Assembly: GCA_002839315.1 (NCBI GenBank)
Contig: PGXV01000008.1
Coordinates: 43,707 to 107,706, forward strand
DNA: 64,000 nucleotides
Origin: Spirochaetae bacterium HGW-Spirochaetae-3
Lineage (GTDB): Bacteria; Spirochaetota; Spirochaetia; Treponematales; UBA12059
Direction: 5' to 3'
This document shows, in pieces, positions 3,540 to 50,307 of this stretch. The position numbers and the translations under genes were made by a program. Each line of letters starts with the position of its first letter. Within the stretch, counting starts at the first letter, position 1. Below the pieces are notes generated by a model, which was not told where the DNA came from, made no database searches, and saw only the letters and a list, made by a program, of their open reading frames with translations.

Positions 3540-6500
3540 TCATCGACGAAGGGCCACGAGATCGCGCAGCTCGTCGTCTCCCAGCTCGGCTATCCACGAC
3601 TCGCCCGAGCGTACCGTCAGTTCCGACAGTTCCCGTTTGGACGCTATCATCGCGTCGATACGCTCCTCTATCGTGCCGCGGGTAATGAGGCGATGGACGA
3701 AGACGTTGCGGCTCTGGCCTATGCGGAACGCCCGGTCCGTCGCCTGGTTCTCCACCGCCGGGTTGAACCAGAGGTCGTAGTGGACGACGCGCGTCGCCGC
3801 GGTCAGGTTGAGCCCGACGCCGCCGGCCTTGAGGCTGACGAGGAATACTCCCGGGCCCCGCTCCGACTGGAAGCGGTCGACCTGCTCGTCCCGCCGTCTC
3901 TTGGTCATGCCGCCGTGGAGCAGGTAGGGCTCGACGCCGAGCTCGTCGCGGACGATGCCCGCCAGTACGTCGAGCATCTCGACGTACTGGCTGAACACGA
4001 GAACCCGTTCGCCCGCCTCGAACGCCGACTCCAGCAGCGCGACGAGGAGCCTGGACTTACCGGATCGCTCGGAAGTGCCGGAGCTCTCCTTGTCGTAGTT
4101 CCGGGGATGGTTCGACGCCTGCTTGAGGGCGGTGATCAGCGCGAGCACGAGGCCGAGCCGCGACTCGGCTCCGGCCGACGACACGTTGCCGAGGCCTTCG
4201 CTCGCTACGGCCTCGTACAGGGCGGCCTGCTCCAGCGTCAATTCGGCGTACTCGTCGACGACGATCTTGTCAGGCAGGTCGGCCGCCACCGCGGCGTCGG
4301 TCTTGAGCCTGCGCATTATGAACGGGGCTATGGCCTTGCGGAGCGCGTCCGCAGACGCCTCGGATCGGTCTATCTCGATAGGGCCTCGGTACTCGGCAGA
4401 GAATCGCGCGAGCGTGCCGAGGTAGCCGGGCAACGCGAAGTCGAAGACGCTCCACAGCTCGGCCAGGTTGTTCTCGACCGGCGTGCCGGTCAGCGCGAGC
4501 CGCCGCTCGGCCTTGACCGCCTTGATCGCCTTGGCCCGGGCGGAATCCGGATTCTTGATGTAGTGGGCCTCGTCGAGGGCTACGAGGCTCCATTCGACGC
4601 CGGCCGTCTTCTTCCGGTCGCGTATCCACGTCTCGTAGCTGGTAAGCGTCACGTCGGCCGGTTTCCGCCTGCGCGCGTGCCCGTAGTACAGGCATAGCGA
4701 CAGCGACGGCGCGAAACGCCCGAGTTCCCGTTCCCAGTTCGTCAGGAGCGACGCGGGCGCGCAGACGAGCGCCCCGCCCTCGAGCCTGCCCGATTCCTTG
4801 AGCGCCAGGATCGCGGCGATAGTCTGCACGGTCTTGCCGAGGCCCATGTCGTCGGCGAGCAGGCAGCCGAGGCCGCGCTCGAAGTTGCCGAGCATCCATC
4901 GATAGCCTCGCTCCTGATAGGGCCTGAGCGTAGCGAGGAGCGACGGGGGGACGGGGGCTTCGTCGGCCGCGAGGCGGCCCGGGCCGACGAGGAAATCGAC
5001 CGCGGCGCCGAGCTCGCCGTCGGCCTCGGCGTCGCCCGACAGCGCCGTACGCAGGGCCTCCATCGCTCCGGGGGCCTTGCGGGCCGATACGCGGGCGAGC
5101 ACCCTGGCCGCCTCTCCCGGGTCCAGGCGCACCCACTCGCCGCGCCAGCGTACGAGGCGGAGGCCCGATTCGAGCAGCGCGGAGAATTCGGCCGGGCTCA
5201 GCCGCTCGTCGCCTATCGCCACGGTCCAGTCGAAGCTGAAGGCGGTCGCCATGTCCAGGTACGATACGAGCCCGGCCTTCCTCGTGGCGCGCAGCGCCGG
5301 CTTCGGGGTCGCCAGGCGCCTGAGCTCCTTGGGCAGCACGAGGGCGACGCCGAAGCGCCGTAGCAAGGGCGCCGCGTCTACGACGAAGTCGGCGAGCTCC
5401 TTCCCGTCGAGCTCGGCGAAGGCGTCGACGCCGAGCCTGCCGAGGGCGGGTACGAAGTTCGACAGCAGGGCCGCGAAGGCCAGCGCGTCGGCGGCGCCCT
5501 TGCCGCCGGAACGGGCCGCGCGCCTGAGCGCCGTCCTGGAGCCGTCCTCGCCGACGACCGACGCGGACAGCCGATACGACGGCTCCTCGCCTCCCGACGC
5601 CGCCGTCCTCGAGGCCGACACCTTGAGCTCCAGCGGCGTCCTGTCCGCGGCCATGTCGTAGACCGACAGCCACGCGTCCAGGGCGCCGGGGAGGGCCCTC
5701 TGGCCGGGCGCGGCGCAGGGTACGGAACGGGTCCCGAACAGGGCGCGCGCGGCGGGGTCGCCGTTCTCCCTCACCGAGCCCAGGGTAAAGCCGACGGCGC
5801 CGGCGAGCTCCGTCAGGAAGGCGGCGGCGAGCGTATCGATAGTCGAGCGGCGGTCGGGGACCGTCTTCGAATCGCCCGCGGGCGACGGCGCCGTCGCGAC
5901 CGGCTCGAGGGCGGACAGCAGCGCGTCGACGTCGGATAGGAAGCGCGCCGGCTTCCAGACTACCGAGAACCGCCCGCCCTCTTCCCTTACGTCCGGCGTG
6001 AACGCGCAGGCGGAGGCCAGCGAGCGGGCCGCGGAGAAGAACGCGCGCAGGAAACGGTACGAGGCGCTACCGTCGCGCTCGCCGCAGGCCGCGAAGAGCC
6101 GTGACGCCGCGAGCGGCCCCGCCTCGCCGCGCGGACCGAGTACCGGCGACGCGATCCGAAGGCCTCGGGGCGAGCCGTCCGAGGCCGGGACCACGTCGAA
6201 GCGGGCCGCCGCGAAGGTCCTCGACCGCGGGCCGTCCATGGCGTCGGAGGGACGGGGCGCGAGCAGTTCTGGGCAGAGCGCGGCGGCCCGGTGATAGAAG
6301 GCTGTACAGACTACGCGCAGGTCGAACGGGGCCAGGCCGCGCGAGGGCGGCAGCATCGCTGGTATGGCGGCGACGTACGGGTTCAGCGGCCCCGCGCGCG
6401 CCAGCGGATCTGATAGTCCCTCCGGATCGGGCCACGGCGTAACGAGGCGGACGGGAACGGGGTCAGGCACGGCGCGGACCGGGACGTCCGGCCTGGCGCT

Positions 6501-7056: not shown

Positions 7057-9030
7057 TTACGCCTTGGCTACGGTATCCTCGCAGGCCTCTACTCGGGCCT
7101 TCCTCGCCTGGAATAGCTGGACGGCCAGTACGACGGCCACGAGCGCCGCGCCGTACAGGTCCTGCGAGTTATTGGGCGTCATCAGGAGAATGGCTCCCGC
7201 GAGGGACATAACCCGGAGGATCACGTTCATCTTCGACATCAGGTAGCCCTCGATGGCGCCGCCCAGCATGATGACGCCTATGATCGACGTGAACATGACG
7301 ACGGCGCCCTCGAGGAAGCTCGAGGCGCGCAGGAGGAGCGCGTCGTTGTACACGAACATGAACGGCACGATGAAGCCCGCGAGCGACAGCTTGAGCGACG
7401 TAAGGCCCGTCTTCATCGGGCTGCCACCGGATATGCCGGCCGCGGCGAACGACGCCAGCGCGACCGGAGGCGTTATGTTGGCGAACATCGCGAAGTAGAA
7501 TACGAACAGGTGGGACACGAGCGGGTCTATGCCGAGGCGGACGAGGGCCGGCGCGGCCATGGTCGCGGTGATCAGGTACGCGGGTATGCTCGGCAGGCCC
7601 ATGCCCAGGATCATGCACGCCACCATCGTGAAGACGAGCGTCAGGAACAGGCTCTTGCCGCCGAGCGCGACGATGGCGCTGGCCATGGAGAGGCCGAAGC
7701 CGGTAAGGCTGGCGACGCCTATGATGATGCCGACCGACGCGCACGCTATCGCTACCGGTATCATCGACCGCGTACCCTCGAACAGGGCGTCCCCGACGTC
7801 CTTGAGGCTCATCCTGGTATTCTTCCGCAGCATCGACGAGGCTATCGTAACGAGTATCGTCATGAACGCGGAGTAGATGACCGTCTTGCCGGACGCGAAC
7901 AGCATGACGACCAGGAATACGAGCGGTATCAGGAGGTGGCCCCGCTCCTTGAGCACGTCCAGCGCCTTGGGCAGGTTCTCGCGGGCTATGCCCTCGAGGC
8001 CGCATTTCTTGGCGCGTATATGCACCTGCGCGATGATGCCGATGTAGTACAGCAGGGCCGGCAGGATGGCCGCGACGGCTATGGTCTTGTACTGGATGCC
8101 GAGGACCTCCGCCATGATGAAGGCGGCGGCGCCCATGATCGGCGGCAGCAGCTGGCCGCCTACCGACGCGGAGGCCTCGACGGCGCCGGCGAATTCCTTG
8201 TCGTAGCCGGTCTTCTTCATGAGCGGTATCGTGAACGTGCCGGTCGTGACGACGTTGGCCACGGCGGCGCCGTTGATGCTGCCGAGGAAGCCGGAGGCTA
8301 TCACGGCGACCTTGGCCGGCCCGCCCTTGGAGTGCCCCGCGAGCGCGAGCGCCATGTCGTTGAAGAACTGGCCCATCCCGGACTTCTCCATGAAGGCGCC
8401 GAACAGGATGAACAGGTAGATGTACGAGGCGGACACGCCGACGGCCGTACCGTAGATCCCGTCCGTAGACACGAAGAGGAAGCTGGACAGGTCGGACCAC
8501 GAATAGCCTCGATGGCCGAAGAACCCCGGCAGGCTCCTGCCGAACATCGCGTACAGCATGAACGCGACGCCGAGTACGGGCAGGGCCCAGCCGGTCACGC
8601 GCCTGGCGCCCTCGAGCACGAGAACGATCAGCACGGCCGCGAACGCGAGGTCGGCCGCGTTCGGCATGCCGGCGCGGCCGACGATGCCTATGTAGTTGAG
8701 GAATACGTATATAGTCGTCGAGGCCGCGAGCAGGGCCAGCGCGATATCGTACCAGGCCGCCTTGGACCGGGAAGCCTTCTTCCTGGCCGGATAGAAGACG
8801 AAGCCGAGCGCGAGTATCATCGCGACGTGGAGCGAGCGGTGCTTGAGCGTCACGGGCGTGCCGAATACGGCGCCGTACAGGTGGTACAGCGCGACGAGTA
8901 TCGCGAAGGCCTTGACGAACAAACCCGCGACCTTACCGCCGAATTCGCGGTACCTCGATTCGGAATCGTACTCCTCGAGTAGTTTCTTCTGTAATTCCGG
9001 CGAACCCGCCGCTTTCATAGTCTCGCTCAA
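7057..9030 (-). CDS. TRAP transporter fused permease (4TM/12TM, TAXI type)
   Basis: Inner-membrane permease of a TRAP-TAXI importer with the small (DctQ-like) and large (DctM-like) subunits fused in one 657-residue chain, as is usual for TAXI systems. Many hydrophobic helices are visible. Conserved DctM-like stretches include GSINGAAVANVVTTGTFTIP, SVGGQLLPPIMGAAAFIMAE, GMGLPSIPAYLI and FANITPPVALASFAAAGI. It is the last gene of the TAXI-SBP, DUF1850, permease operon. The start is TTG at 9030: GGAGGT lies exactly 6 nt upstream, whereas the next ATG (9018) would be too far from it. The substrate is unknown; many TAXI systems take up small organic or amino acids. Confidence 0.94.
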   Translation of the reverse strand: MSETMKAAGSPELQKKLLEEYDSESRYREFGGKVAGLFVKAFAILVALYHLYGAVFGTPVTLKHRSLHVAMILALGFVFYPARKKASRSKAAWYDIALALLAASTTIYVFLNYIGIVGRAGMPNAADLAFAAVLIVLVLEGARRVTGWALPVLGVAFMLYAMFGRSLPGFFGHRGYSWSDLSSFLFVSTDGIYGTAVGVSASYIYLFILFGAFMEKSGMGQFFNDMALALAGHSKGGPAKVAVIASGFLGSINGAAVANVVTTGTFTIPLMKKTGYDKEFAGAVEASASVGGQLLPPIMGAAAFIMAEVLGIQYKTIAVAAILPALLYYIGIIAQVHIRAKKCGLEGIARENLPKALDVLKERGHLLIPLVFLVVMLFASGKTVIYSAFMTILVTIASSMLRKNTRMSLKDVGDALFEGTRSMIPVAIACASVGIIIGVASLTGFGLSMASAIVALGGKSLFLTLVFTMVACMILGMGLPSIPAYLITATMAAPALVRLGIDPLVSHLFVFYFAMFANITPPVALASFAAAGISGGSPMKTGLTSLKLSLAGFIVPFMFVYNDALLLRASSFLEGAVVMFTSIIGVIMLGGAIEGYLMSKMNVILRVMSLAGAILLMTPNNSQDLYGAALVAVVLAVQLFQARKARVEACEDTVAKA

Positions 9031-49985: not shown

Positions 49986-50023
49986 AAAAGAAAACGGCCT
50001 TTCCCGTAATCGGAAAAGGCCGT
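49986..50023 (-). terminator. Rho-independent terminator of the tRNA-Pro locus
   Basis: On the minus strand a stem of CGGCCTTT pairing with AAAGGCCG (50015-50022 with 49995-50002), with a few further pairs, is followed by TTTTCTTTT (49986-49994). It lies directly downstream of the 3' half of the outer tRNA-like element, where the terminator of a normal tRNA gene would be. Confidence 0.9.
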
Positions 50024-50026
50024 CAA

Positions 50027-50053
50027 TCGGGCAACCGAGATTCCAACCGGGGA
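50027..50053 (-). pseudogene. 3' half of a degenerate tRNA-Pro (outer element)
   Basis: On the minus strand this reads as the T-arm, acceptor 3' strand (TTGCCCG) and discriminator A of a tRNA-Pro. It is identical to the intact tRNA over its last 17 nt, but the T-loop is TTGGAAT (conserved C56 lost), one T-stem pair is broken and there is no encoded CCA. Its acceptor strand pairs perfectly with the 5' fragment at 50249-50255. Confidence 0.8.
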
Positions 50054-50118
50054 TCCCCGCTCCTATCGGCGCGGCTACTGTCACGATCCCTCGACTATCC
50101 GTCACGATGAACTTAAGA

Positions 50119-50215
50119 AGATTTCTTGGTCGGGCAACCGAGATTCGAACCCGGGACCCCTAGTCCCCCAGACTAGTACGCTAACCAGCTGCGCTATTGC
50201 CCGACCAAGAAATCT
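50119..50215. repeat. Perfect 19-bp inverted repeat around tRNA-Pro
   Basis: AGATTTCTTGGTCGGGCAA (50119-50137) and its exact complement (50197-50215) extend the 7-bp acceptor stem by 12 further pairs. The tRNA 5' leader is therefore fully complementary to the CCA end and trailer. Confidence 0.93.
50127..50203 (-). tRNA. tRNA-Pro(GGG), CCA encoded
   Basis: The 77-nt gene folds fully: acceptor CGGGCAA/TTGCCCG with the C1-G72 and A73 identity bases of bacterial tRNA-Pro, D-arm GCGC/GCGT, anticodon stem CTAGT/ACTAG with loop CTGGGGG (anticodon GGG), T-arm with TTCGAAT, and an encoded CCA. It reads Pro codons CCC and CCU. It lies between two halves of a degenerate second copy and shares that copy's promoter and terminator. 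Confidence 0.97.
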
Positions 50216-50230
50216 ATTATCCACGTCGTG

Positions 50231-50255
50231 ACGCAACCAACCGCGCTATTGCCCG
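50231..50255 (-). pseudogene. 5' half of a degenerate tRNA-Pro (outer element)
   Basis: On the minus strand this reads acceptor CGGGCAA, TA, and a complete D-arm GCGC-GGTTGGTT-GCGT. The first 13 nt equal those of the intact tRNA-Pro. The sequence diverges after the D-arm, where an anticodon arm should begin. It lies about 16 nt after the predicted transcription start. Confidence 0.8.
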
Positions 50256-50277
50256 TCACGCGTTTCCGCGCCCGCGA

Positions 50278-50307
50278 ATACTAGCACGCTGCCGGAACCC
50301 GTGTCAA
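50278..50307 (-). promoter_or_regulatory. Sigma-70 promoter of the tRNA-Pro locus
   Basis: On the minus strand -35 TTGACA (50302-50307) and -10 TAGTAT (50278-50283) are 18 bp apart. The predicted start near 50271 is just before the outer 5' tRNA half and about 68 nt before the intact tRNA. The -35 overlaps the stop codon of the TIGR02757 gene. Confidence 0.82.

Follow-up and report, generated by a model that had tools for sequence, protein, structure and literature searches.

What is an intact tRNA gene doing between the two parts of another copy of the same tRNA? In the window, the 64,000-nucleotide stretch of DNA from Spirochaetae bacterium HGW-Spirochaetae-3 that was analysed, one promoter and one terminator on the minus strand enclose the 5' part of a tRNA-Pro(GGG), an intact tRNA-Pro(GGG) and a matching 3' part. 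The features of this nested unit are, in transcribed order (genomes are denoted by G numbers):

50278..50307, minus strand: sigma-70-like promoter of the whole nested unit (TTGACA, 18 nt, TAGTAT with TG before it)
50232..50255, minus strand: outer tRNA-Pro 5' part, acceptor 5' strand and D-arm, 24 nt, degraded
50204..50231, minus strand: left arm (L), comprising the outer-arm strand TCACGA (preceded by CG at 50233-50232) and the clamp strand AGATTTCTTGGT (50215-50204)
50130..50203, minus strand: inner intact tRNA-Pro(GGG), 74-nt body (ARAGORN, Rfam)
50099..50129, minus strand: right arm (R), comprising the clamp strand CCAAGAAATCT (50129-50119) and the outer-arm strand TCGTGACG (50107-50100)
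50057..50098, minus strand: degraded anticodon-arm piece of the outer tRNA-Pro, ATAGTCGAGGG, from CTAGTCTGGGGG, with a second insertion (by comparison with G002, G015, G020 and G157)
50027..50056, minus strand: outer tRNA-Pro 3' part, with T-arm, acceptor 3' strand and discriminator A
49993..50024, minus strand: intrinsic terminator of the whole unit (14-pair stem, 4-nt loop, T tract)

An earlier note on this DNA had described the order of 5' half, intact tRNA-Pro(GGG) and 3' half, which ARAGORN, Rfam and the sequence itself confirm with the same coordinates, and had assigned the promoter and terminator to the outer copy; both indeed flank the whole unit on the correct strand. The outer acceptor strands are, as it stated, perfectly complementary (CGGGCAA/TTGCCCG), and its two inverted repeats between the outer parts and the inner tRNA have the lengths given, 8 bp (CGTCACGA/TCGTGACG) and 19 bp, the latter consisting of a 12-bp leader/trailer clamp, in which CCAAGAAATCT plus A73 pairs with AGATTTCTTGGT, and the 7-bp acceptor stem. 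Missing from that description was the degraded anticodon-arm piece of the outer copy (50098-50057), which is recognisable only through relatives.

The inner copy scores as an ordinary tRNA gene (Rfam tRNA, 58.5 bits against a cut-off of 29), and is most likely the working tRNA and the sole working product of the unit. ARAGORN extends it to 50127-50203, since the CCA of the clamp follows the 74-nt body; this is not an encoded CCA tail, as the same place reads CCG or CTA in other species. None of the other 41 tRNAs in the window genome has a 5'-half duplicate close by. Rfam searches of the window at gathering thresholds, with sub-threshold hits ignored, find only two tRNAs and no other known RNA family, group I and II introns included, and a permissive threshold in the relatives yields no intron either.

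The folding check proposed in the earlier note supports its picture of nested arms with the inner tRNA inside the outer: in ViennaRNA, which models no tertiary contacts, modifications or kinetics, the whole transcript has a predicted minimum free energy of -138.9 kcal/mol (z = -7.4), with none of 200 dinucleotide shuffles as stable. Fold z-scores of -7.4, -7.8 and -5.0, along with recurrence in independent assemblies, reject chance as the source of the layout. The outer acceptor stem is predicted to form with a probability of 0.93–0.99, and the minimum-energy fold of G020 is without the outer helix.

Comparison of the 325-base unit with 99 related genomes gave full-length or flank matches in several members of the same genus and family. 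A pattern of a tRNA-Pro 5' half, 18–48 nt and then a tRNA-Pro 5' half again was matched in 6 of 394 genomes of the order: G002, G014, G015 and G020 from the same family, and G051 and G157 from another. Six stretches with this pattern, every one of them from a spirochaete, were found among 84,980 bacterial and archaeal species genomes, a search that may leave out the window genome's own records; the matching records include Spirochaetae bacterium HGW-Spirochaetae-7, Spirochaetes RA.bin110, Spirochaetes QR_Bin.15 and Treponema sp. UBA12037. The window genome itself misses the pattern only through one base lost from the outer half.

The nested order is therefore found in several spirochaete genera and always with tRNA-Pro(GGG), in G002, G015, G020, G157 and G051, with half of it in G014, and the promoter precedes the outer 5' half in G002, G015, G020, G014 and G157. 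The order in G157 runs CGGGCATTAGCGCAGGTGGTTAGCG, left arm, complete tRNA, right arm, CAGTCTGGGGGAC, hairpin, TTGGGTCC, T-arm, ATGCCCGA and terminator; G002, G015 and G020 have the same order, as does G051, where the outer 3' part lies past an assembly gap and is without its acceptor strand. Two variants are incomplete, G007 being without the outer 5' half and G014 without the outer 3' half, and loss may account for either, as may, in G007, the collapse of a contig end. An assembly artefact is rejected for the layout as such, which occurs in seven genomes and, in one, within a 733-kb contig.

Many close relatives carry a plain tRNA, so the nested layout is dispensable. The earlier note had taken relatives with a plain tRNA-Pro here as grounds for abandoning its reading; some relatives are indeed plain, while others keep the nested layout, so this objection holds by half. 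One plain tRNA-Pro(GGG) is that of G022, from the same genus as G015 and G020, whose leader GGGCGCCCAAGGGCGCGA is identical to the leader of the outer copy in G020 and whose terminator is nearly identical. It therefore appears that the outer copy occupies the original locus. Judged by sequence comparison, G022 would be the empty-site counterpart, in which the insert was never present or was lost by recombination between direct repeats.

As for the age of the arrangement, the left arm is alignable across genera (G000 with G014 and G015), with none of 2000 shuffles aligning as well, which points to a nested layout that predates these genera and was later lost in places. Independent origins from an ancestral clamp may be an alternative; the shared L sequence across genera could in part derive from such a clamp.

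Is the outer copy one interrupted tRNA, or the leftovers of several? In the relatives, the outer 5' part breaks off behind the D-stem, its last bases being GCG(T), and the 3' part takes up the anticodon stem from its 5' strand, restarting at (A)CAAGTCTGGGG or nearby (G002, G015, G157, G051). The break thus lies at about position 26, between D-arm and anticodon arm, and a second, smaller hairpin insertion is found in or adjoining the 3' strand of the outer anticodon stem. In G002, G015 and G157 the abutting outer parts nearly complete one tRNA, though within one transcript and with the anticodon stem disrupted by the second insertion. Because the parts abut in this way, we read the outer copy as one interrupted tRNA and not as two array leftovers. 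Of the three readings offered by the earlier note, that of a tRNA inserted into another is for the same reason the best supported, with its site corrected from the anticodon arm to the junction of D-arm and anticodon arm.

A decayed tandem array, also offered in the earlier note, would instead comprise three tandem tRNA-Pro copies, of which the first lost its 3' part and the third its 5' part, without any functional nesting. The locus is recombinogenic: G015, G002 and G051 carry further downstream copies of trailer, anticodon piece and T-arm, G051 repeats the leader plus 5' half, and contigs end near tRNA-Pro in several relatives. The second copies of right arm, anticodon piece and T-arm lie at L040 (G015) 4892-4917, L042 (G002) 8044-8069 and L052 (G051) 3975-4000, some hundred bases past the first (about 370 in G015 and 780 in G002), indicating tandem duplication at the tRNA-Pro locus. 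However, at four loci or more the two outer parts join at one and the same tRNA position, neither overlapping nor separated by more than about two bases. Repeated abutment of this kind, in several genera, is not expected if copies one and three of an array had decayed independently. The flanking arms are also complementary and co-vary. We therefore regard the decayed array as unlikely, although tandem duplication does occur here.

The arms make up two helices, a clamp, which adds 8–13 pairs to the inner acceptor stem, and beyond it an outer helix. Outer-arm pairs differ across six species (CGTCACGA/TCGTGACG, CGCCATGA/TCATGGCG, CGATCCGATCGACA/TGTCGATCGGATCG, CGCCGCA/TGCGGCG). Across these six, the summed L:R duplex energy of the cognate arms is the best of 720 permutations, with a mean of -28.2 kcal/mol for cognate and -15.5 kcal/mol for mismatched arms, and for the outer helix alone the cognate pairing ranks 3 of 720. 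In the alignment of the clamp-plus-acceptor helix, 100% of cells are paired and 7 of 19 pairs have changed on both sides, a result from which the T-stem pairs, one base off in the alignment, were left out; sliding the partner by one base breaks the pairing. Clamp pairs -2 to -8 are paired in all 12 of the species picked for having a clamp, five of which are without outer halves (G006, G078, G096, G093 and G054). In the window genome the clamp measures 12 bp at the nested tRNA, compared with a mean of 0.12 bp in the 41 other tRNAs. These comparisons indicate that the arms are under pairing constraint, changing in sequence yet staying complementary.

What the arms may do is suggested by predicted folds. 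Across five species, the probability that the inner acceptor stem forms is 0.97–0.99 with native arms and 0.02–0.30 with shuffled arms. For a transcript that stops with the inner tRNA, the predicted fold has the inner 3' strand captured by the outer 5' half (probability 0.87–0.96), so that the right arm would then switch the fold to its productive form. In a control with the outer halves removed, shuffled arms still spoil the predicted inner fold, as the acceptor strand is then taken up by the G-rich anticodon region. The clamp may therefore mainly help an inner tRNA that is liable to misfold, more than it shields this tRNA from the outer halves, and may predate the nesting, since relatives such as G006, G078 and G096 have the clamp without outer halves.

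The earlier note's third reading, an RNA with its own function, gains from the pairing constraint on the arms and loses from the state of the outer copy in the window genome. In the relatives the outer 5' part matches its own inner copy at 24–25 of 25 positions; in the window genome the outer halves are 21/25 and 27/30 identical to the inner copy, the anticodon piece is scarcely recognisable, the outer D-loop and T-arm have likewise decayed, and the outer copy is visibly decaying. If there is a function, the pieces left after excision of the inner tRNA, joined by the acceptor stem and the outer arms, would be a selected two-piece tRNA-like RNA that might bind prolyl-tRNA synthetase or processing enzymes; C1-G72, A73 and the GGG loop are retained in relatives. 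Between G015 and G020 the outer halves are indeed 25/25 and 30/30 identical while the arms L and R are only 61% and 68% identical, the anticodon-arm insert keeps its hairpin by paired changes, and the outer acceptor stem has the high predicted probability given above. Yet the outer halves track the inner copy in each lineage, as in the T-stem strand, which is CTCGG in G002 and the window genome and CCGCG in G015/G020, and because such lineage-specific changes are common to both copies, exchange between them (concerted evolution) would, at least in part, account for the conservation without selection. Furthermore, G022 does without the outer RNA, and ARAGORN calls no tRNA-Pro in the excised outer sequences. 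A selected two-piece RNA is accordingly doubtful in our view. Slightly more doubtful still is its strongest version, in which a stable, CCA-tailed two-piece RNA, recognised by prolyl-tRNA synthetase or RNase P, is left over once the inner tRNA has been released; were it true, one transcript would couple tRNA supply to a tRNA-like regulator. The outer anticodon-arm insert of G015 and G020 (L040, L041) comprises two hairpins, of which the first differs by paired changes (CTGAACAAGGC/GCCTTGTTCAG in one, GTCAACAAGGC/GCCTTGTTGAC in the other) and the rest is nearly identical.

The inner tRNA together with its arms forms an insert bounded by terminal inverted repeats (CGTCACG...CGTGACG), with a single insertion point and a sporadic distribution over two families and different gene neighbourhoods, features that would also suit a small mobile cassette, a tRNA with inverted arms that enters tRNA-Pro genes at one site. 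Against this, the tRNA within the insert resembles, in every case, the outer copy of its own host and not a common cassette, the window contains no recombinase gene, the integron and attC-like repeats elsewhere in the genome are unlike the insert, and no other tRNA of the window genome holds a nested copy, making a cassette very improbable. Eight tyrosine-recombinase matches are found in the genome, none of them in the window, and the locus therefore does not present itself as an integrase attachment-site remnant. An integron cassette or attC site is rejected, as the CCTAACA/TGTTA-type repeats near the integron are, by reading, absent at the tRNA locus; so is a transposase-mobilised repeat, the Y1 transposase of the genome lying away from tRNA-Pro, and a phage origin, viral contigs giving no match to the layout.

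Mobile elements do occur elsewhere in these genomes. An integron integrase (TIGR02249, 437 bits) with attC-like repeats at a contig edge, at G000:C4:1340-2281 (L116), marks a chromosomal integron of the window genome, and tyrosine recombinase genes at G000:C15:21961-22449 and G000:C5:181028-181516 adjoin tRNA-Ala(CGC) and tRNA-Leu(GAG) and probably belong to integrated elements. Just past the G002 array, at about 7500–8050 of L042, a sequence resembling a phage terminase large subunit (by reading) suggests a prophage remnant. Several tRNA genes have their own T-arm and acceptor strand in inverted orientation downstream of the terminator: L060 (Pro CGG), L072 (Cys), L064 (Met), L076 (Asn) and L117 (Gly CCC). 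The last of these lies a few hundred bases downstream of a Y1-type (REP/IS200-like) transposase gene at G000:C14:122766-123101 (L117). The inverted end is followed by a G+C-rich element with a hairpin around CATGGATG, and often by a direct copy and another terminator; such units are tandemly arrayed in some relatives, with downstream arrays in L039, L042, L049 and L090. Because each inverted end matches its own tRNA, these elements look like an undescribed family of tRNA-linked repeats.

Taken together, the layout, its recurrence, the abutting outer parts, the co-varying arms and the plain tRNA of G022 with its like leader and terminator make it probable that a tRNA-Pro(GGG) gene was interrupted near position 26 by another tRNA-Pro(GGG), complete and borne on a paired stem, and that the inner copy works, the outer copy is a relic and the arms act as a folding clamp. 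We infer that the outer copy marks the original locus and now just supplies promoter and terminator. The inner tRNA would be the functional product, and the arms would stay complementary as they force it to pair with itself despite the decoy halves and the G-rich anticodon region. Bacterial RNase P is slowed when the leader pairs with the 3' RCCA (PMC9433436), and RNase III acts in bacterial tRNA and rRNA processing (PMC3386247). The clamp should hinder RNase P, and maturation would probably begin with an RNase III-type cut in the long duplex, followed, in this presumed order, by RNase P and 3'-end processing. The outer halves would stay inner-like through exchange between copies while decaying in the window genome. 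Such loci are natural test cases for how tRNA precursors mature when their acceptor stems carry long extensions, and for how identical RNA halves in one transcript avoid misfolding.

Searches of the open-access literature, outside which most subscription journals lie, yielded no description of a nested tRNA layout, whether directly or by way of leader/trailer pairing with RNase III or tRNA remnants. The closest known systems each share a part of it. Split and permuted tRNA genes of Archaea and algae (PMC3218864, PMC4390854) are likewise broken, with RNA ends held by flanking pairing, but in them a splicing endonuclease acts at a bulge-helix-bulge to join the parts into the mature tRNA. In the nested unit it is the insert that is most likely the working tRNA, a second insertion lies in the broken copy, and the host is bacterial. 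Self-splicing group I and II introns (PMC4390854) also interrupt bacterial tRNA genes with an extra stretch, whereas the stretch described here enters at position 26 instead of the anticodon loop, is about 130–140 nt long with a tRNA inside and gave no match to a ribozyme family. In leader-RCCA-paired pre-tRNAs (PMC9433436), leader and trailer similarly lengthen the acceptor stem, slowing RNase P; in the nested unit the added helix measures about 12 bp and co-varies between species, and beyond it come a second helix and another copy of the tRNA. Duplications of tRNA 3' ends at integrase attB sites resemble the unit in leaving a 3' remnant downstream of an intact tRNA, but the nested unit also has a 5' remnant upstream and complementary arms, with no element or integrase between. 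Disrupted tRNA genes are familiar from Archaea, algae and bacterial self-splicing introns. A bacterial tRNA gene interrupted by an entire second copy of itself, held between co-varying arms, is a genuine, recurring and unusual arrangement, and the open-access searches gave no account of a complete tRNA as the insert, in several bacterial genera.
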